Part shown: in pieces, positions 3,524 to 14,635 of the stretch
Numbering within the stretch: position 1 is the stretch's first letter
Layout: every line of letters begins with the position of its first letter
Origin: a virus
Virus record (IMG/VR): IMGVR_UViG_3300023184_000581
Coordinates: 1 to 21,588 of that record
Length of the DNA stretch: 21,588 nt
Reading direction: 5' to 3' (one strand)
Notes under the pieces: model-generated
Seen by the model: only the letters and a program-made list of their open reading frames with translations
Databases searched by the model: none
Told to the model about the DNA's origin: nothing
Program-made: the position numbers and the translations under genes

Positions 3524-5119
3524 ATGGCATTCTTAGACGTATTTAAAAAAACAAAGAACCCAAAGTCCCCATCTAAAGCAGGTGGGGACACAGAAGGGTC
3601 AATCAGCGCAGATGTTATACCTTTTTTAAACATCATCGCAAAAAATTCTCTTGCTCTACCGGGCATGGCAAGAGATATGAATGTTTTGCGTCAAAATATT
3701 GTTAAGCTAGTTAAGTTAAAGAATGCTGAAGCGATTACTAAAGCTGATAAATTTTTTAAGTCTGAAGACCAGCGTGAGGCAGAACTGGAGGAGGCACGTA
3801 AAAAAGAAACTTCTCCACAACCAATGACTAAAGAAGGTAAACCCAAAAAAGAAAAAGATGATAGTGGTGGTGAAGAAGGAGTATTGGGTTATCTTTGGAA
3901 TTTACTTAAAAATGTATTAGGTAAACTATTTTTTGGTTTGGCGTTGGCAATTGGTTCGGCATTTGATTTAAGCAAAATAATGGGGGACATTGCCGACAAG
4001 TTAAATCCTTTACCTTTAATAGAGAGTTTATTTCAATCGATTAAGGATGGTTGGAAAGCAATTACTGAGACAGATATAGTCAAAGAAACCCTCATCAAAG
4101 GTATGGGTAAGTTTTTAGATTTCATTACTGCTGGCTTATTCGGTGAAGAAGATTTACGCAAATCATTAAATGATTTAGCCGAATATATTACTCCAATGAT
4201 TGATGTTATCACAGAAACATTTGAAAGAATAGTCGGTTGGTTGAAAGATAATATTGGGTGGGACCCGTTTACAATTCCCTTATCTAAAGTAAATGAGTAT
4301 CTACCAGATTGGGCTAAAAAGTTTTCATTGCCTGACATTCAAGTTCCTGGATTTAGACCGTTCCAGAATAACAAAGAAATGCCAGCCCCAACCACCAGTA
4401 GTAAAAGTTCACCTCCAACTACACCTACTGAAGAAACAACGAAAGCAAAAACTGCACAGGGTGACGTTGTTTATGATGAGATGGGTAATGTTGTATCGGG
4501 TACGCCAGCAACCGAACCCACTCCAACAAAACAGACTGCCAGTAAAGCACCAGAAAGTAAAGTCAAACGATCAACAGAGGATTTGGCTAAAGAAGCTGGA
4601 CAAGATAAAAAGAAAGCTGTAGAGTTTTTGAAAGCGCAAGTTGGTGTTGTATTTGATCCGAAATCACCAACACAATTTGCGGATATTAAAACTGGAAAAC
4701 CATTAGATGAGCAATCTGTCAGAGATAGAATTGTTGACATGAAAGGTGATCCAGATAAAATTCTTTCATTATTAAAGGGTGCAACAGCAGTAAAAGCAAC
4801 AACTATGTCATCCCCATTAACACCTTCGGAAGCCGCAGCAACAGGAGGATCACCTTCGGCTGCATCCGTTGGGGGAGCATCACCTTCAGCCCAAGCCACA
4901 CCCATTTCTTCGGCATCGGGAGCGTCTATATCACAAGCATCTTCTGAAGTAGCTGAAGGTCAAAGGATGGATGCGGCTGCTGATGCAGGAACAGTAATTG
5001 ATGCTGGTGTAACCAATAACTCTGTAGGCACCACTGGTAATAAATCAAAACAAATATCGGATGCATTTAACAGCAGCTTTATTGATAATTATTATTCTAA
5101 TAGAACGGCTACTGCTTAA
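3524..5119 (+). CDS. Tail/hub scaffold paralog A: membrane-segment protein with an unrecognised cargo domain
   Basis: This 531-residue protein is the first of three tandem paralogs. Shared parts: an N-terminal block (LNIIAKNSLALPGMAR, residues 35-50), a hydrophobic segment (about 121-148), the block FITAGLFGEEDL (200-211), a long low-complexity Pro/Thr/Ser linker, and a C-terminal tail (ASSEVAEGQR, then TNNSVG, ending RTATA). Where paralogs B and C carry wall-cutting domains, A has a compact charged region at about 345-425 (EDLAKEAGQDKKKAVEFLK to KILSLLKG) that I do not recognise. Near the end is an Ala/Ser/Gly-rich linker with repeated SPS. No ribosome site is seen; the ATG follows the gp51-frame stop directly, so translation probably depends on ribosomes finishing that frame. 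A role at the tail tip is inferred from the paralogs and the position next to hub genes. Confidence 0.75.
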   Translation: MAFLDVFKKTKNPKSPSKAGGDTEGSISADVIPFLNIIAKNSLALPGMARDMNVLRQNIVKLVKLKNAEAITKADKFFKSEDQREAELEEARKKETSPQPMTKEGKPKKEKDDSGGEEGVLGYLWNLLKNVLGKLFFGLALAIGSAFDLSKIMGDIADKLNPLPLIESLFQSIKDGWKAITETDIVKETLIKGMGKFLDFITAGLFGEEDLRKSLNDLAEYITPMIDVITETFERIVGWLKDNIGWDPFTIPLSKVNEYLPDWAKKFSLPDIQVPGFRPFQNNKEMPAPTTSSKSSPPTTPTEETTKAKTAQGDVVYDEMGNVVSGTPATEPTPTKQTASKAPESKVKRSTEDLAKEAGQDKKKAVEFLKAQVGVVFDPKSPTQFADIKTGKPLDEQSVRDRIVDMKGDPDKILSLLKGATAVKATTMSSPLTPSEAAATGGSPSAASVGGASPSAQATPISSASGASISQASSEVAEGQRMDAAADAGTVIDAGVTNNSVGTTGNKSKQISDAFNSSFIDNYYSNRTATA

Positions 5120-5121
5120 TT

Positions 5122-7260
5122 ATGTTATCCGGTCTTCTTGGTCTTACAATAGACAAGGGTGATCTCAATAAATCATCCCCATCCCCCGTAGCCAATACCC
5201 TAAAAAAGACAGCCATCAATTATCTTGCCATCGGTAGAATGGCAAATGATCTCAAACTCATACGTTTAAATTTTTCCCGTTGGTTAGCCATAGAAGGTGT
5301 CAGAGTTAGAGGCACACCAGATGCGAATGTTTTAAAGGATGATGAACTCTCTAAAAAATTTAATGTTCAACGTGAAAAATATTTAAATTCAAAAGTTAGT
5401 AAATTATCACAAGATGCGACCAGTGGTAATAAAGGTTTAGTTAAAAATTTAATGGGGAAATATATTGATTATAAAGTAGGACGAAAAGTAGAACGAAAAA
5501 TTGCCGCAGCAGTATTGAAGAAGTATAAAAAACTTACGTGGATTCGTAAGTTTATGAAATTTAAAAGGAAGTTAATAGCTGATGTAAACAAATTACTAGG
5601 AAAACTGAACATAAAAAAAATGTTCATGGATTGGTTTAAGAAAAATTCCAGTAAAATTATAAAACCTGTAATTCAAGTATTCTCGAATGCAATGAAACGT
5701 TTTTTCACAAATGGATTGAAAAAATTAGCCATCAGATTCGGAACTGCGTTTGTTGCTTCTGTAGGATTTTCTGGACCGTTTGCAGTAGCCATTGCCGCTG
5801 CGGTGACAATCGTAATGATGTTGTGGGACCCCCTGAAGGATGCGTGGGAAGAATATCAAAAGGGTGGAGACTTTTTTAAAACCTTTATTGTTGGATTGAT
5901 GGATGAATTTAGCTTCGGTTTATTCGGTAAAGAAAATTTATCTGAATTTTATGATTTGGTTGGTAAATGGCGTGATAACTTGTTTAAGCAAATATTCAAT
6001 ACAATAGACGAATCCATAAAATTTATTGAAAAAAAATTCACAAGTTTTGCAGATTTCATTATTAAGAAAGGAAAATCGCTTTTCACCAATGAATCCAGAC
6101 CAGCAGATTTTAAATCTTCTTTTGAAGAACTGAACTCAAAACGTATACAAGATGAAGCAAAAGAACGCGAACAGTATGGTAAATATTTTGATCAGATGAA
6201 TGAAAAAATCGAGCAGAAAAAAATTAAAATCCGTCAACTCGATTTGGAAATTGCAACCCTTGAGTACGACATCAAATACTTAACAGAAGGTCCAGAGAAA
6301 GCTAACCTTGAGGCTGCAAAGGTAGAGAAAGCAAAAACAGAAAAAGAAAAAGCTGAACTTGAAAAACAAAAAGCAGAACAATTTCAAGGTATAGGTGATG
6401 CTGGAGATGAAGAAAAAAAGTCAGCCAAAAAAGAAACAAAAACATCTACTGCTCCCCCAAAAGCAAACCAAGCTGCTGCATTAACTCCCGTGAAAAAACA
6501 GGAAGTTGTACCAGAAAAAAAACCAACAGTTGCACCCACACCAACAATTTCAAAACCATCTTCTACAAGTGGACAATATGAAAACATTAAACAAATGGTT
6601 ATTGGGAATGAAGGTTGGAAAAATAAACCCTACAAGGATTCTCGCGGATTATGGACTGTAGGCGTTGGACATTTAATTGGTGACGGTAAAAAGTTGCCTA
6701 AAGAATGGGATCGTGAATTTAGCAATCAAGAAGTTCGTGAATTATTTGAAAAAGATTTCGCTGAACATTTGAAGCTTGCAGAAAAGGCACCAGGATGGGA
6801 TAAAGCAAACGAAGCTGGCAAGGCTGGCTTGATTGATTTAACTTATAACATGGGTGGTTATTGGTATAAAAAATTCAAAGTAGCCGCCAGTTTGTTATCG
6901 GAAGGTAAGTTTAAAGAAGCTGCCGATGAATTTAAATCGAGTAAATGGTATAAACAAGTTGGTGAACGTGCTCCAGCAACAGTAAGCTTAATACGTTCTG
7001 GTGCAGCTAATAATAAAGAGGGTTCAACGGCACTTGCTTCTGTTCTATCATCAACTAAAGTAGCTTCCGCTGGAAAGTTTCTTGGTGGGGAATCAACGCA
7101 ACTTGCTCAAGCCCAAAGAGAACAAATGAAGCCAAAAGACGTTAATGTAATAAACGTTGCAAAAGTAAACAATAATAAAAAAACACAAAACGAAAATATT
7201 GCTATGACCAAACCTGGACCGGATAGCCAATCAACTCTGGTGAATAGGGCAACAGCATAA
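5122..7260 (+). CDS. Tail-associated lysozyme, scaffold paralog B (GH24 domain)
   Basis: At 712 residues it is the largest of the three paralogs. Order of parts: N-terminal helical block (TAINYLAIGRMANDLKLIR, 30-48), a very basic region (110-200), a hydrophobic segment (about 207-234), FSFGLFGKENL (263-273), a Lys/Glu coiled coil (about 335-420), a Pro-rich linker, then a T4-lysozyme-type GH24 domain (about 486-630). The catalytic pattern E-8-D-5-T is intact: E497, D506 and T512, within EGWKNKPYKDSRGLWTVGVG. Such a domain hydrolyses the MurNAc-GlcNAc bond. The shared C-terminal tail follows (AQAQREQ, VNNNK, ending RATA). In T4 the tail lysozyme is part of gp5; here it is borne by a different scaffold. 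The gene starts 2 bases after paralog A without a ribosome site and shares one base with paralog C (taatg). The membrane segment suggests insertion into or passage through the host membrane. Confidence 0.88.
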   Translation: MLSGLLGLTIDKGDLNKSSPSPVANTLKKTAINYLAIGRMANDLKLIRLNFSRWLAIEGVRVRGTPDANVLKDDELSKKFNVQREKYLNSKVSKLSQDATSGNKGLVKNLMGKYIDYKVGRKVERKIAAAVLKKYKKLTWIRKFMKFKRKLIADVNKLLGKLNIKKMFMDWFKKNSSKIIKPVIQVFSNAMKRFFTNGLKKLAIRFGTAFVASVGFSGPFAVAIAAAVTIVMMLWDPLKDAWEEYQKGGDFFKTFIVGLMDEFSFGLFGKENLSEFYDLVGKWRDNLFKQIFNTIDESIKFIEKKFTSFADFIIKKGKSLFTNESRPADFKSSFEELNSKRIQDEAKEREQYGKYFDQMNEKIEQKKIKIRQLDLEIATLEYDIKYLTEGPEKANLEAAKVEKAKTEKEKAELEKQKAEQFQGIGDAGDEEKKSAKKETKTSTAPPKANQAAALTPVKKQEVVPEKKPTVAPTPTISKPSSTSGQYENIKQMVIGNEGWKNKPYKDSRGLWTVGVGHLIGDGKKLPKEWDREFSNQEVRELFEKDFAEHLKLAEKAPGWDKANEAGKAGLIDLTYNMGGYWYKKFKVAASLLSEGKFKEAADEFKSSKWYKQVGERAPATVSLIRSGAANNKEGSTALASVLSSTKVASAGKFLGGESTQLAQAQREQMKPKDVNVINVAKVNNNKKTQNENIAMTKPGPDSQSTLVNRATA

Positions 7261-9089
7261 TGTTAGATAAATTTTTTAATAAAAATAATCCAGACAGTAA
7301 GGTTCAAAAAGATAAAGACACGAAAGACGGTGTGGCAGCAATGCGTATTGTCGCAAAAAATACGCTTGTGTTTCCTTCAATAGCCAAACAACTCAAATCA
7401 CTAAACTCTGCATTCGGAAACTATTTAAAATTAAATAACATCAGACCAGCAGTTGGTGATAAGCTTACCGATGTTACCAAATCTCTCAGAGAATCCAAAG
7501 AAATATCAGTAGCCAATATCAAAGTTAAAAAATATGCCAAAGAGAAAAAACGAACTTTCTTAGCTGGAATATTGGATACTTTTGTAAAAATACTGAGTGG
7601 TCTTTTTTTAGCTTCCCTTCTTTCAATTGGTTACGTTGTATATAAACTCACTGAAATTATTTCTCCATATGTTGGAAAGGTTATTGATAAAATTTCTGAG
7701 GGGATAACATTCCTATCGGATAGCATCTCTTCATTTTTCAGGGATGTCGATTGGCTAGATTTATTTGAAACATCATTCAAAAAGTATTTAAACTTTATCA
7801 GTTTTGGTATCATAAACGAAGAACGAGTAAATGAAGTAATATCACAATCAGGTTCATTTTATAAAGAAATGATGAAAGGTTTTGGTAGCATTATTAAGAA
7901 TGCTATTGAATGGTTAGCACCAAAATTACAATCTATAGGAAGATTTGTAGGAAAAGATATTCTTGGTGTTGATATTGATAAACAAGCTGAGAGAAGAAAC
8001 ATAAAAGAACAGCTTGCGAAACGTTCACAAGAACTGCAAAAAGAATACAATGATCTGGATAAGCAAGATGTAGAGTTAACTGGTAAAAAGAATAAATTAT
8101 CCAAAGAAAAACAAAAATTACAAGAGTTAAAATTAAAAAGAGAAGAAGAAGAGAAACAGAAAAAGATAGCTGAAGCTGTTGAAAAGGAAAAGAAGAAACC
8201 TATCCTTGAAAGATTATTCGGTAAAAAAGAAGAAGCTAAACCTGAAGCAGTCCCGACAGAAGTTAAAAGGGAAGAAGCAAAACCCACACCAACAATAAAG
8301 AAAGAAGAACCCAAAGTTGAAGTGAGTAAAGTACCAGCTTCGGATGGGACTGCTGCACCTTTACCCGAACCAGCAAAACAACCTTCATCTGCTGTTAGTT
8401 TACAATCTGTTGTAGAAGACAATTCACCAAAGTTTACTCCGATTGATTATTCAGGATTAAATCCAGCTTTCAAAAAGCTTTTGGTTGAGATGGCTACTTC
8501 ATATACGCAAGAAACTGGTAAAAAGTTATTAATCAATTCGGCGTATCGTTCAAATCAAGAGCAGAAAGAACTGTACGATAGATGGATTGCATCAGGTAAG
8601 AAGGGTGGTGTTGTTGCCAAACCAGCGGCTCCATTAAAAGGTGCTGATGGACAATCGGGAGCAGGATCACCTCATACCAGTGGTACTGCTATTGACATTC
8701 AAGCAAAAGGACAATTATTCGGAAAGCTTTCAGGTGATGTTGATAACCCTTCTGGATGGCTAGAGAAATTTGGTTTAACGCGACCAGTAACATCAGAATT
8801 TTTAATAAAGCAGGGAAAAGACCCGGCAAAACGGGAAGATTGGCACGTTACTCCACTCAAAAGTTTACCTACACCCGATGGTGGTATTGTTGCGAATAAA
8901 TCAGGTAAAGCTGTTGATTTGGAAAGTGGTAAGAAAACCCCCAACTATGATATAGGAAAATCCTCTTCTGAAATTGCAGCCGAGCAACGAGGACAATCTA
9001 AACCACAAAATCCTACCTACGTTGATGCTCGTACTACAAACAACAACATAGTGGAAAAAAATAAAAAATACGTTCCTGTTCCAGCATAA
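7260..9089 (+). CDS. Tail-associated D,D- or L,D-peptidase, scaffold paralog C (M15/VanY-like domain)
   Basis: This 609-residue protein is the third paralog. It has the N-terminal block (MRIVAKNTLVFPSIAKQL, 28-45), a hydrophobic segment (about 101-128), the block NFISFGIINEERV (178-190), a Lys/Glu-rich coiled coil (240-325), a Pro-rich linker, and an M15 peptidase domain (about 395-535). Zinc and catalytic residues are in place: SPHTSGTAIDI gives H472 and D479, and EDWHV gives the E526 base and H529. SAYRS (427-431) is the usual substrate-side motif. These enzymes cut peptidoglycan stem peptides, either as D-Ala-D-Ala carboxypeptidases or as L-Ala-D-Glu endopeptidases; the exact bond cannot be told here. 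The tail matches its paralogs (SSSEIAAEQRGQ, then TTNNNI). The ATG overlaps the stop of paralog B by one base. It is the last gene of the plus operon. Confidence 0.87.
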   Translation: MLDKFFNKNNPDSKVQKDKDTKDGVAAMRIVAKNTLVFPSIAKQLKSLNSAFGNYLKLNNIRPAVGDKLTDVTKSLRESKEISVANIKVKKYAKEKKRTFLAGILDTFVKILSGLFLASLLSIGYVVYKLTEIISPYVGKVIDKISEGITFLSDSISSFFRDVDWLDLFETSFKKYLNFISFGIINEERVNEVISQSGSFYKEMMKGFGSIIKNAIEWLAPKLQSIGRFVGKDILGVDIDKQAERRNIKEQLAKRSQELQKEYNDLDKQDVELTGKKNKLSKEKQKLQELKLKREEEEKQKKIAEAVEKEKKKPILERLFGKKEEAKPEAVPTEVKREEAKPTPTIKKEEPKVEVSKVPASDGTAAPLPEPAKQPSSAVSLQSVVEDNSPKFTPIDYSGLNPAFKKLLVEMATSYTQETGKKLLINSAYRSNQEQKELYDRWIASGKKGGVVAKPAAPLKGADGQSGAGSPHTSGTAIDIQAKGQLFGKLSGDVDNPSGWLEKFGLTRPVTSEFLIKQGKDPAKREDWHVTPLKSLPTPDGGIVANKSGKAVDLESGKKTPNYDIGKSSSEIAAEQRGQSKPQNPTYVDARTTNNNIVEKNKKYVPVPA

Positions 9090-12231: not shown

Positions 12232-12786
12232 TTAAGTGTTCCTCTGTTTTACTCTGTTGTAGAAAATGTGCCTACCGATATAGGCAGTCCTTCTCATATT
12301 ATTCCAAGTCGGTTTTACATAATCTGCATGATAAAACAAAGCACCCTTAGACGGGTCATCATATTCTTCTGGATTTAAATAGAAATTTAATGATAAATCC
12401 ACAATACTATTGTATAACAAATTGCTATCAGGTGTCAATGCTTTTCTATTAATAATAGACTTGGCTCGTTCTTCACAAAACCACGAAAATTGACATACAC
12501 CATCTGATTTTTGTTTTACTACGCCACAATATGTGGTTGGATATTTACCGCTAATCATACGATTACGGGTTACATGAGCAACAGCAATTTGTCCTTCTCT
12601 AGGTTCTTGTGCTGCCTCAAAATAAATGTTCTGTGCAAGGCACTCAATCTCGGTTCTTGCTTCTTTTGTTAGGTCGCGTAGTTCTACATTTAATTTGGTA
12701 GGCACAACAATCTGCGCCATAGTCTGACCAAAAAATAAAATGAAAGACGCAAAACACGCGCACAGTAATAGGGTTAAAAAACGCAT
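12232..12786 (-). CDS. Exported SleB-like cell wall hydrolase (candidate endolysin)
   Basis: This 184-residue protein starts with a signal peptide (hydrophobic residues 4-24, ending QTMAQ), then a SleB/Hydrolase_2-type domain: CLAQNIYFEAAQEPREGQ (49-66) with the likely catalytic E57, AVAHVTRNRM, CQFSW, FYLNP, GALFYHADYVKPTW, and a C-terminal IGRHIFYN. SleB-type enzymes act as lytic transglycosylases on peptidoglycan. With a signal peptide, the enzyme can be exported by the host Sec system, as in holin-independent or SAR/signal-arrest lysis. The ribosome site is strong (AAGGAG, five bases before the ATG). A very stable C(UUCG)G hairpin lies just upstream in the leader. It is the obvious candidate lysis enzyme of the window, distinct from the two tail-borne wall hydrolases at 5122-9089. 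Confidence 0.87.
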   Translation of the reverse strand: MRFLTLLLCACFASFILFFGQTMAQIVVPTKLNVELRDLTKEARTEIECLAQNIYFEAAQEPREGQIAVAHVTRNRMISGKYPTTYCGVVKQKSDGVCQFSWFCEERAKSIINRKALTPDSNLLYNSIVDLSLNFYLNPEEYDDPSKGALFYHADYVKPTWNNMRRTAYIGRHIFYNRVKQRNT

Positions 12787-13412: not shown

Positions 13413-13618
13413 TATTTCTTTTTATTTTTCTTGCGAGACTCTAACCATTCTTTGATTAATCGGTCTTGACGTTTATCTTCCCAAGTGTCTATGTTACGAT
13501 CTTTCTTTCGACCTTGACCTTTAAGAAATTTTGTATCCCCATAAGGAGTAACAAAATCTGCGCCTGTTTTATATACATCAATTTTTGGAAATGTTTTTGC
13601 AACCATTTTTAATCCCAT
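13412..13618 (-). CDS. Small basic hypothetical protein
   Basis: This 68-residue, strongly basic protein ends with a run of Lys/Arg (LESRKKNKKK). Its ATG lies inside the last codons of the upstream gene (10-base overlap), with AAGGA two bases before it; an alternative start at MVAKTF is four codons later. The segment TPYGDTKFLKGQGRKKDRN is probably disordered and could bind nucleic acid, but no domain is recognised. It is the middle member of three tightly packed genes (13164-14169). Confidence 0.65.
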   Translation of the reverse strand: MGLKMVAKTFPKIDVYKTGADFVTPYGDTKFLKGQGRKKDRNIDTWEDKRQDRLIKEWLESRKKNKKK

Positions 13619-14169
13619 AGTCCTTGATAATATTTACCAAATAAACGAAACCCGTTCTGTATACGCTCAGATTCTTCCCAAGTTGCTGACCAATCTGTAT
13701 CTTTTACTTTCATCTCAAATGCAAATATCATTTCATTCATAATCCAATCCCATCGGGCATGAATATCATTTATGCCTTCTTTTACTTTATCTTCTTCATA
13801 AAAATCAAAAGTAAATTGGGGTTCCCAATCTTCAGTAGTTGTGCCACGAAGATGTTCTGGTACATCTTCCATATCTGTGAATGGTGACCCATGTTTCGTT
13901 TCCTTCAACTGTTTCAGCATAGGAAGAATGATATCTGCTAACGTAGAATCCATTGACCATGTATCATACCGATCAATCTTCACATAACTGATTCGTGGAT
14001 GAATAAAGTCAAGAAAATCGTGCCATGCTACGCAGATTGGATTTAGACGATTAGACCATTTCTCAATGATTGGTTCACCATAATCAATCTCACGCCAAAA
14101 GAAAACCTTCTCCAAAATAGTATAAGGAGAAATCCAATGATTGCGATAATTTGATTTATAGATTTTCAT
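13609..14169 (-). CDS. Conserved phage hypothetical protein
   Basis: This 186-residue soluble protein starts MKIYKSNYRNHWISPYTI and contains KIDRYDTWSMDSTLADIIL (84-102), KHGSPF and a long acidic/aromatic middle with many Trp and Asp/Glu residues. I recognise the family from other T4-like phages, where it is unassigned. The WSMD...LP pattern and regular Trp residues suggest a compact fold, but no active site is visible. It follows the tmRNA terminator, so it needs its own transcription start or read-through. The next gene overlaps its end by 10 bases. Confidence 0.75.
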   Translation of the reverse strand: MKIYKSNYRNHWISPYTILEKVFFWREIDYGEPIIEKWSNRLNPICVAWHDFLDFIHPRISYVKIDRYDTWSMDSTLADIILPMLKQLKETKHGSPFTDMEDVPEHLRGTTTEDWEPQFTFDFYEEDKVKEGINDIHARWDWIMNEMIFAFEMKVKDTDWSATWEESERIQNGFRLFGKYYQGLWD

Positions 14170-14174
14170 GGTAT

Positions 14175-14213
14175 AAAAAATAGTGGGAGTGATTGGTTAA
14201 TAAGGACACTCCC
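14175..14213 (-). terminator. Intrinsic terminator ending the tmRNA transcript
   Basis: On the minus strand, GGGAGTG (14207-14213) pairs with CACTCCC (14185-14191): seven perfect pairs around a 15-base loop. A T-rich stretch with six consecutive T (complement of 14175-14180) follows shortly after. It lies 15 bases past the tag stop codon and directly before the ATG of the next gene. In two-piece tmRNAs a helix after the tag is normal, so the hairpin may double as part of the coding piece. Confidence 0.8.
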
Positions 14214-14228
14214 GAAACCCCAAGTGAG

Positions 14229-14270
14229 TTACGCTGCTAGGCGATCCTCACCATAGAATGCATCATTTGC
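14229..14270 (-). other. tmRNA tag-peptide reading frame (ANDAFYGEDRLAA, stop)
   Basis: From the resume codon GCA at 14270 the frame reads Ala-Asn-Asp-Ala-Phe-Tyr-Gly-Glu-Asp-Arg-Leu-Ala-Ala and stops with TAA. Proteobacterial tags commonly begin (A)AND and end in (L)AA; the terminal LAA is the ClpXP recognition end. The middle (AFYGEDR) differs from the E. coli tag. The resume codon is assigned by analogy, since there is no AUG. Confidence 0.85.
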
Positions 14271-14354
14271 ATTTATAGATTTGCTTGATTAACGGTCATC
14301 GCCTACCGTGTTGCCTTCTCCACTATCTCACGCTGTCGAAACCTGGTCATCCCC

Positions 14355-14438
14355 ATCAGAAGCACACTACCACACGTTGTATATTACTAAAGGTAGCGAT
14401 CCTTTAGTAGTGTAGCGGGTAACTCCATAATGTGCTTC
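14355..14438 (-). other. Intervening segment removed from the tmRNA precursor
   Basis: This 84-base stretch joins the CCA end of the acceptor piece to the 5' G of the coding piece. GAAGCACA (beside the CCA) pairs perfectly with TGTGCTTC (beside the coding piece), extending the acceptor stem. Inside, TACTAAAGG pairs with CCTTTAGTA over nine bases. In bacterial permuted tmRNAs the equivalent segment is cut out by tRNA-type processing (RNase P on one side, 3' trimming on the other). Confidence 0.78.
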
Positions 14439-14503
14439 TGGTGGAGATGGGGGTATCGAAACCCCGTCCAACATGCCTTTGCTTTGAAGGAATTACAACA
14501 ATT

Positions 14504-14635
14504 CTATCTTATGTAATTGCCAGTGACAACCACATAAATGAACAAACACCAACCAAATCGTAACGCTATATCAAACCAGCGTTCAAAATGATCAAGTTTA
14601 GTTTTAGGATCTTTTTTCTCATCACTCATATTCAT
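14504..14635 (-). CDS. Small single-pass membrane protein (43 residues)
   Basis: The frame starts at ATG 14635 with GGAG five bases upstream, and a second in-frame ATG stands two codons later. It encodes a charged N-terminus (SDEKKDPKTKLDHFERW) and a C-terminal hydrophobic segment (FGWCLFIYVVVTGNYI), ending with TAG at 14504. The stop lies immediately before the tmRNA acceptor piece. The charge-then-membrane layout and good ribosome site support it as a real gene. Function is unknown; it may share a transcript with the tmRNA. Confidence 0.65.
   Translation of the reverse strand: MNMSDEKKDPKTKLDHFERWFDIALRFGWCLFIYVVVTGNYIR

Follow-up and report, generated by a model that had tools for sequence, protein, structure and literature searches.

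tmRNA is an RNA that frees stalled ribosomes and tags the unfinished protein for destruction. In 2022, 53 two-piece tmRNAs were reported in 18,146 phage genomes, mostly aquatic, and viral tmRNA was proposed to maintain the machinery that the phage has hijacked or to recycle proteins of the host (PMC9004378); the main text of that paper, which describes the Methylophilales phage Melnitz, contains no analysis of tag sequences. The tmRNA database holds 79 phage sequences (PMC11915505), and a tmRNA has been annotated in the Stenotrophomonas phage Marzo (PMC8928761). The window analysed here is the whole stretch of 21,588 bases of IMG/VR record IMGVR_UViG_3300023184_000581, a freshwater virus record with T4-like genes, including those for tail tube, baseplate hub, head closure, a gp32-like SSB, a gp59-like helicase loader and a gp33-like late regulator. 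ARAGORN, run on the window, called a single permuted tmRNA on the minus strand (14530..14138) with the tag ANDAFYGEDRLAA. Matches to two Rfam 15 families were strong, namely RF04321 tmRNA_permuted (14500-14229, 138.3 bits against a gathering score of 47, E 1.6e-27) and RF01850 beta_tmRNA (14552-14174, 132.5 bits against 84, E 1.2e-40). The tmRNA of the window is circularly permuted (two-piece) and of betaproteobacterial type. Its features, and the neighbouring gene that was used to find syntenic relatives, are as follows.

14439..14500, minus strand: acceptor (3′ tRNA-like) piece, first in the gene (ARAGORN 3′ tRNA domain 14476-14439; RF04321 alignment from 14500)
14355..14438, minus strand: intervening segment of 84 nt, predicted to be removed from the precursor (ARAGORN layout, compensatory stem, fold)
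14185..14354, minus strand: coding piece (ARAGORN and Rfam)
14354-14328, minus strand: 5′ tRNA part, beginning GGGGAUG (ARAGORN layout)
14229..14270, minus strand: tag reading frame GCA AAU GAU GCA UUC UAU GGU GAG GAU CGC CUA GCA GCG UAA, read as ANDAFYGEDRLAA* (ARAGORN, relatives)
14221..14292, minus strand: tag cassette, made up of resume context, tag and 8 nt past the stop (the unit differing between near-identical scaffolds)
14224..14251, minus strand: helix 5, formed by GUGAG of the Gly-Glu codons (14251-14247) and CUCAC (14228-14224) directly past the stop (sequence; compensatory change)
14185..14213, minus strand: 3′ hairpin GGGAGUG (14213-14207)/CACUCCC (14191-14185), then T6 (sequence; beta_tmRNA match stops at 14174)
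13609..14169, minus strand: neighbour gene of 186 aa (phrog_11543), downstream of the tmRNA and outside the RNA

The acceptor piece comprises the P2 strand GUUGU, the D/T part, the T arm GGGGU-UUCGAUA-CCCC, the acceptor strand CAUCUCC, the discriminator A and an encoded CCA. The ends of the intervening segment pair with each other (GAAGCACA/UGUGCUUC), leaving UGAU before GGGG. The coding piece contains the acceptor strand GGGGAUG, GGUUUCGAC, the PK1-region hairpin ACGGUAGGCGAUGACCGU, the resume context UAUAAAU, the tag, helix 5 and the 3′ hairpin; the last of these, with its T6, marks the end of the tmRNA and possibly serves as a terminator. GGGGAUG and CAUCUCC form an acceptor stem of seven pairs (G1-C72, G2-C71, G3-U70, G4-C69, A5-U68, U6-A67 and G7-C66), of which G3-U70 is the alanine identity pair. 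The initial annotation had proposed a two-piece tmRNA on the minus strand with a CCA-ended acceptor piece first, a removable segment of 84 bases, the tag ANDAFYGEDRLAA and a seven-pair acceptor stem including G3-U70. The layout was borne out by ARAGORN and Rfam, the segment (14438-14355) and the tag by ARAGORN, and the stem by the sequence together with the ARAGORN bracket structure. The gene end that it placed at 14185 coincides with the end of the 3′ hairpin, and the covariance-model and permuted ARAGORN searches that it suggested gave the strong matches reported above.

The fold of the tmRNA stretch beat 100 of 100 shuffles (z -4.2). A stem of at least 8 bp in the intervening segment was found in 102 of 115 distinct relatives, as against roughly 1.6% of segments after shuffling, and each position showed three to six types of pair; in the precursor this hairpin continues the acceptor stem. 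Covariation in helix 5 was observed in a related subclass of 16 sequences, in which the codon before Gly ended in U with the partner A (11/16) or in C with the partner G (5/16) and was unpaired in none; the covariation score was reached in 0 of 500 shuffles, and slid registers scored far below it. An 8-nt perfect complementarity between the PK1-region loop and the tag codons (UAGGCGAU/AUCGCCUA, 14303-14296 with 14246-14239, minus strand) was dropped as a candidate new helix. It was invariant in most relatives with no covariation, fell to 6 nt or fewer in GEERLAA relatives, and had counterparts of similar length elsewhere in the set; it is probably due to chance. A promoter scan gave 4 sites compared with 6.8 expected by chance, and a -35/-10-like site at 14529-14501 does not stand out as a promoter, being not above chance and giving a start too late for the whole P2 strand. 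A clean TTGACA-17-TACTAT lies upstream in two relatives (L153 and L329).

The gene is patchily distributed among related phages. Permuted tmRNAs were common in related freshwater contigs and are annotated in Stenotrophomonas T4-like phages. Of 72 testable relatives, 37 had a tmRNA directly upstream of the neighbour gene listed above, and 12 of 13 relatives negative in ARAGORN also had no Rfam match; the gene is missing at this place in about half of the syntenic relatives, implying that it is dispensable. The gp33 gene is located some 2.8 kb downstream of the tmRNA in the window. A PF07486 cell wall hydrolase of SleB type (12232-12786, minus strand), a probable endolysin, is encoded in one strand block with gp33, gp59 and the tmRNA. 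Elsewhere in the window, three large proteins are encoded in tandem (3524-9089, plus strand); the first and the third resemble each other at the N terminus (24% identity over 244 aa, E 3e-8), a lysozyme domain is present in the second and a VanY D-Ala-D-Ala carboxypeptidase domain in the third, and they are likely to be related virion proteins bearing different wall enzymes. Long glycine-rich proteins (PF21722; 18965-21576, minus strand), one with a laminin-G/concanavalin-like domain, are probable tail fibre or adhesin genes.

The tag of the window has 13 residues and an RLAA end and does not take the host-like form (10 residues, A[LIM]AA end); a host-like tag is not, however, a defining feature of the permuted beta-type tmRNA family. 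The tag belongs to a family, AND-x-[FY][FY]-GE[DEV]-RLAA, for which a scan with the pattern AND-x-[FY][FY]-GE-x-RLAA recovered 94 stretches of viral DNA and nothing from the genomes of 84,980 species of bacteria and archaea. Most of the viral stretches were called permuted tmRNA by ARAGORN. Those that it missed had the stop codon at the same place and, with one exception (L364, GEVSLAA), kept RLAA; all five ARAGORN-negative tag loci tested matched tmRNA_permuted. Annotated phages searched with the cassette of the window and with one from an alpha-type scaffold gave no real match. Bacterial tags read at 73 loci sampled from the related order were nearly all of 10 residues and, with one exception, ended in A[LIM]AA, position -4 being Ala in 72 and Ser in one. 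The order-wide host searches from which they came served only as a source of host tags and yielded few permuted matches, since one-piece tmRNAs also occur in that group and only a few candidates from each genome were scored. Arg at -4 was also present in the unrelated viral tags VAANDDSYTVRIAA, ANNNLHFEQRLAA and ANDSQFRIAA. Across 19 distinct sequences from loci found by scaffold or synteny and not by tag, pN/pS of the GExRLAA frame was 0.12; this is the unbiased estimate, a value of 0.17 from sequences chosen by tag pattern being biased. Together with the conserved stem of the intervening segment, this value excludes chance or decay as an account of the tmRNA. Very long predicted tags of 23-31 residues were seen in eight other viral permuted tmRNAs, several with a cyanobacteria-like core ANNIVAF[ST]R extended on both sides (for example, AKTDTPAANNIVAFTRIPTANARQLATV). 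Four one-piece viral tmRNAs had 13-residue tags ANNN[LS]HF[EQ]QRLAA with the same RLAA end as the tag of the window, possibly by convergence.

Comparison of collinear phages with near-identical tmRNA scaffolds showed that some carry this tag and others an ordinary ALAA tag, and that only about 55-70 nt differ between them. Between L147, with ANDAFYGEDRLAA, and L114/L144, with ANDETFALAA, there was 1 difference in 93 positions of the upstream region and acceptor piece, none in 67 of the removable segment and none in 64 of the 5′ coding part, then 32 in 72 in the tag segment and 3 in 84 past it. The corresponding counts for L329 and L153 were 5/93, 6/84 and 6/62, followed by 34/72 in the tag segment and 0/83 beyond, and further such pairs exist. 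The contigs of the exchange pairs are flanked to either side by kilobases of collinear sequence with 82-91% identity. Because the exchanged unit extends a few nucleotides past the stop codon, helix 5 is preserved in the swap. In a tree built from the upstream scaffold, tag class required 21 changes, well-supported branches forcing at least 10 of them, and the hypothesis that the tag forms one clade was rejected (AU test, p-AU 4e-51). At three loci (L293, L301 and L354), the GExRLAA tag is carried by scaffolds matched by the alphaproteobacterial model but not by the beta one. In L125 (~2430), a tmRNA with a short removable segment and no encoded CCA has an upstream flank about 92% identical to that of the window; the acceptor half, too, is exchanged between phages. 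Exchange of the tag between relatives is more dynamic than capture followed by retention and points to selection on the tag. Tentatively, freshwater T4-like phages may share a pool of alternative tag cassettes, each a helix-5 unit, that recombine between scaffolds, even between alpha and beta permuted ones, and GE[DEV]RLAA may be an evolved degron that changes the host protease or adaptor used, in answer to protease diversity or defence.

These findings bear on where the gene came from. The hairpin typical of the coding half was found in 13 bacterial contigs, nearly all of Alcaligenaceae (Advenella, Pelistega and Brackiella) and all with ordinary ALAA tags; since it is almost confined to Alcaligenaceae among bacteria, the scaffold is classed as betaproteobacterial in type, and the tag matches that of no sampled bacterium. 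The initial annotation had suggested capture from a host lineage. Its reading of the gene as a permuted tmRNA in a T4-like genome was supported, the type being betaproteobacterial; a rare or one-off capture does not agree with a trait that is common and patchy and whose tag is exchanged. Its expectation that a strong match would name the donor lineage failed for the tag, which is absent from the bacterial genomes searched and foreign to the ARAGORN tag list and therefore names no donor.

The strongest alternative is that the phage captured an ordinary host tmRNA that tops up the rescue capacity of the host, its tag having drifted with no special role. The beta-type scaffold is near host forms, the LAA end is retained, and many related phages have ordinary ANDxxFALAA tags at the same place, all of which would fit such a capture. 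However, drift would not produce a tag that is strongly conserved across diverged phages (pN/pS 0.12), absent from the bacterial genomes searched and recurrent on many scaffolds, and we consider this explanation unlikely overall. It could also be that the tag segment is kept as an RNA structure, with the peptide a mere consequence of helix 5, as the pairing of the Gly-Glu codons with the strand past the stop and the near-invariance of CGCCUAGCnGCG in nucleotides might suggest. Yet ALAA cassettes of different sequence occupy the same place in otherwise identical scaffolds, and in the set chosen by tag pattern, which is biased as noted for pN/pS, third codon positions vary most while the codons for Asn, Asp, Tyr/Phe and Glu keep their coding sense, making this explanation quite improbable. 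A decoy role, in which the phage RNA would draw SmpB or ribosomes away from host tmRNA and so block host trans-translation, has been proposed for phage DS6A, whose TLD-only, tag-less tmRNA reportedly inhibits tmRNA, possibly through titration of SmpB (PMC4131195, PMC11915505). It is barely credible here, given that relatives conserve the open tag frame together with the resume context, helix 5 and the stop, and that a decoy needs no kept tag peptide. Equally remote is the idea that the tag exchange is an artefact of metagenome assembly: every case is a metagenome contig and conserved stretches of about 25 nt flank the cassette, but the cleanest pair regains similarity at once past the cassette, the collinear flanks extend to both sides, and two joins less than 70 nt apart in several independent pairs are unlikely.

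Taken together, these results make it probable that the window encodes a working trans-translation RNA of the two-piece beta type, which would use host SmpB and carry a virus-specific degron cassette with a lengthened linker. The tmRNA would be made during infection as a precursor with a tRNA-like end, the acceptor stem continued by the 84-nt hairpin. Host tRNA-processing nucleases would cut past CCA and before GGGG, leaving two pieces held together by pairing; host alanyl-tRNA synthetase would recognise G3-U70 and charge the RNA, and host SmpB would deliver it. Ribosomes stalled on broken or host-degraded messages would then be freed and A-ANDAFYGEDRLAA added to the unfinished protein. In this way the phage could keep ribosomes and amino acids circulating and set its own rule for the degradation of tagged proteins. 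Neither SmpB nor SspB was matched in 19 related phage records, the longest of 208 kb and some possibly incomplete; the lack of an SmpB match implies that the RNA would use the SmpB of the host. SspB was encoded in 12 of 12 tested bacterial genomes with beta permuted tmRNA.

Including the charged alanine, the tag reads A-AND-A-F-Y-GEDR-LAA, in which an SspB-type box (AANDxxY) and a ClpX-type LAA end can be recognised by sequence only; the linker is three residues longer and ends in Arg (GEDR). In E. coli, AANDENY is the binding site of the adaptor SspB and ALAA that of the ClpX pore, and ClpXP also degrades degrons lengthened by an inserted linker, such as AANDENYSENYALAA (PMC8512704). The engineered DAS+4 tag places four inserted residues between the sites for SspB and ClpX; it is rapidly degraded when SspB is there and stable when it is not (PMC8138137). 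From these motif roles, the extended degrons and the presence of SspB in all 12 genomes, we infer a functional rescue RNA with a linker-extended viral degron; this reading of proteolysis rests on E. coli biochemistry, by analogy with which the tag may act as a virus-specific degron. The open-access literature searched contained no report on the effect of Arg at -4 on degradation.

Permuted tmRNA in phages is itself already known; no description of a virus-only tag family or of tag exchange was found in the open-access literature, where older papers are sparsely covered. That the tag is conserved, known only from viruses and exchanged as one block shows that it is itself under selection in phages. 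Phages with the same scaffold and different tags are natural matched pairs for asking why viruses carry tmRNA. The tags would be naturally evolved degrons, with no match among those bacterial genomes that were searched and a likeness to engineered tags with extended linkers.

Among known systems, Melnitz likewise has a permuted tmRNA in a T4-like aquatic phage, near the late transcription coactivator gene; its tmRNA differs in being of alphaproteobacterial type and in following a glutamine riboswitch (PMC9004378), whereas an Rfam scan of the window gave no riboswitch match. The Stenotrophomonas Menderavirus, Marzo, also combines a permuted tmRNA in a T4-like phage with Arg at -4 of the tag, VAANDDSYTVRIAA, but it has a different scaffold (26% of the query aligned, at 78.6% identity), a position within a tRNA cluster and a different tag (PMC8928761). 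The engineered degrons AANDENYSENYALAA and DAS+4 (PMC8512704, PMC8138137) share, by sequence, the SspB box, extra linker and ClpX-binding C-terminus; the tag of the window is natural and viral, has a linker three residues longer and ends in LAA rather than DAS. The betaproteobacterial tmRNAs of RF01850 and RF04321 are the same in gene order, acceptor stem with G3-U70, T arm, PK1-region hairpin, resume context and helix 5, whereas the tmRNA of the window is distinguished by a 13-residue GEDRLAA tag in place of the 10-residue ANDxx[FY]A[LIM]AA and by its viral location beside phage genes.
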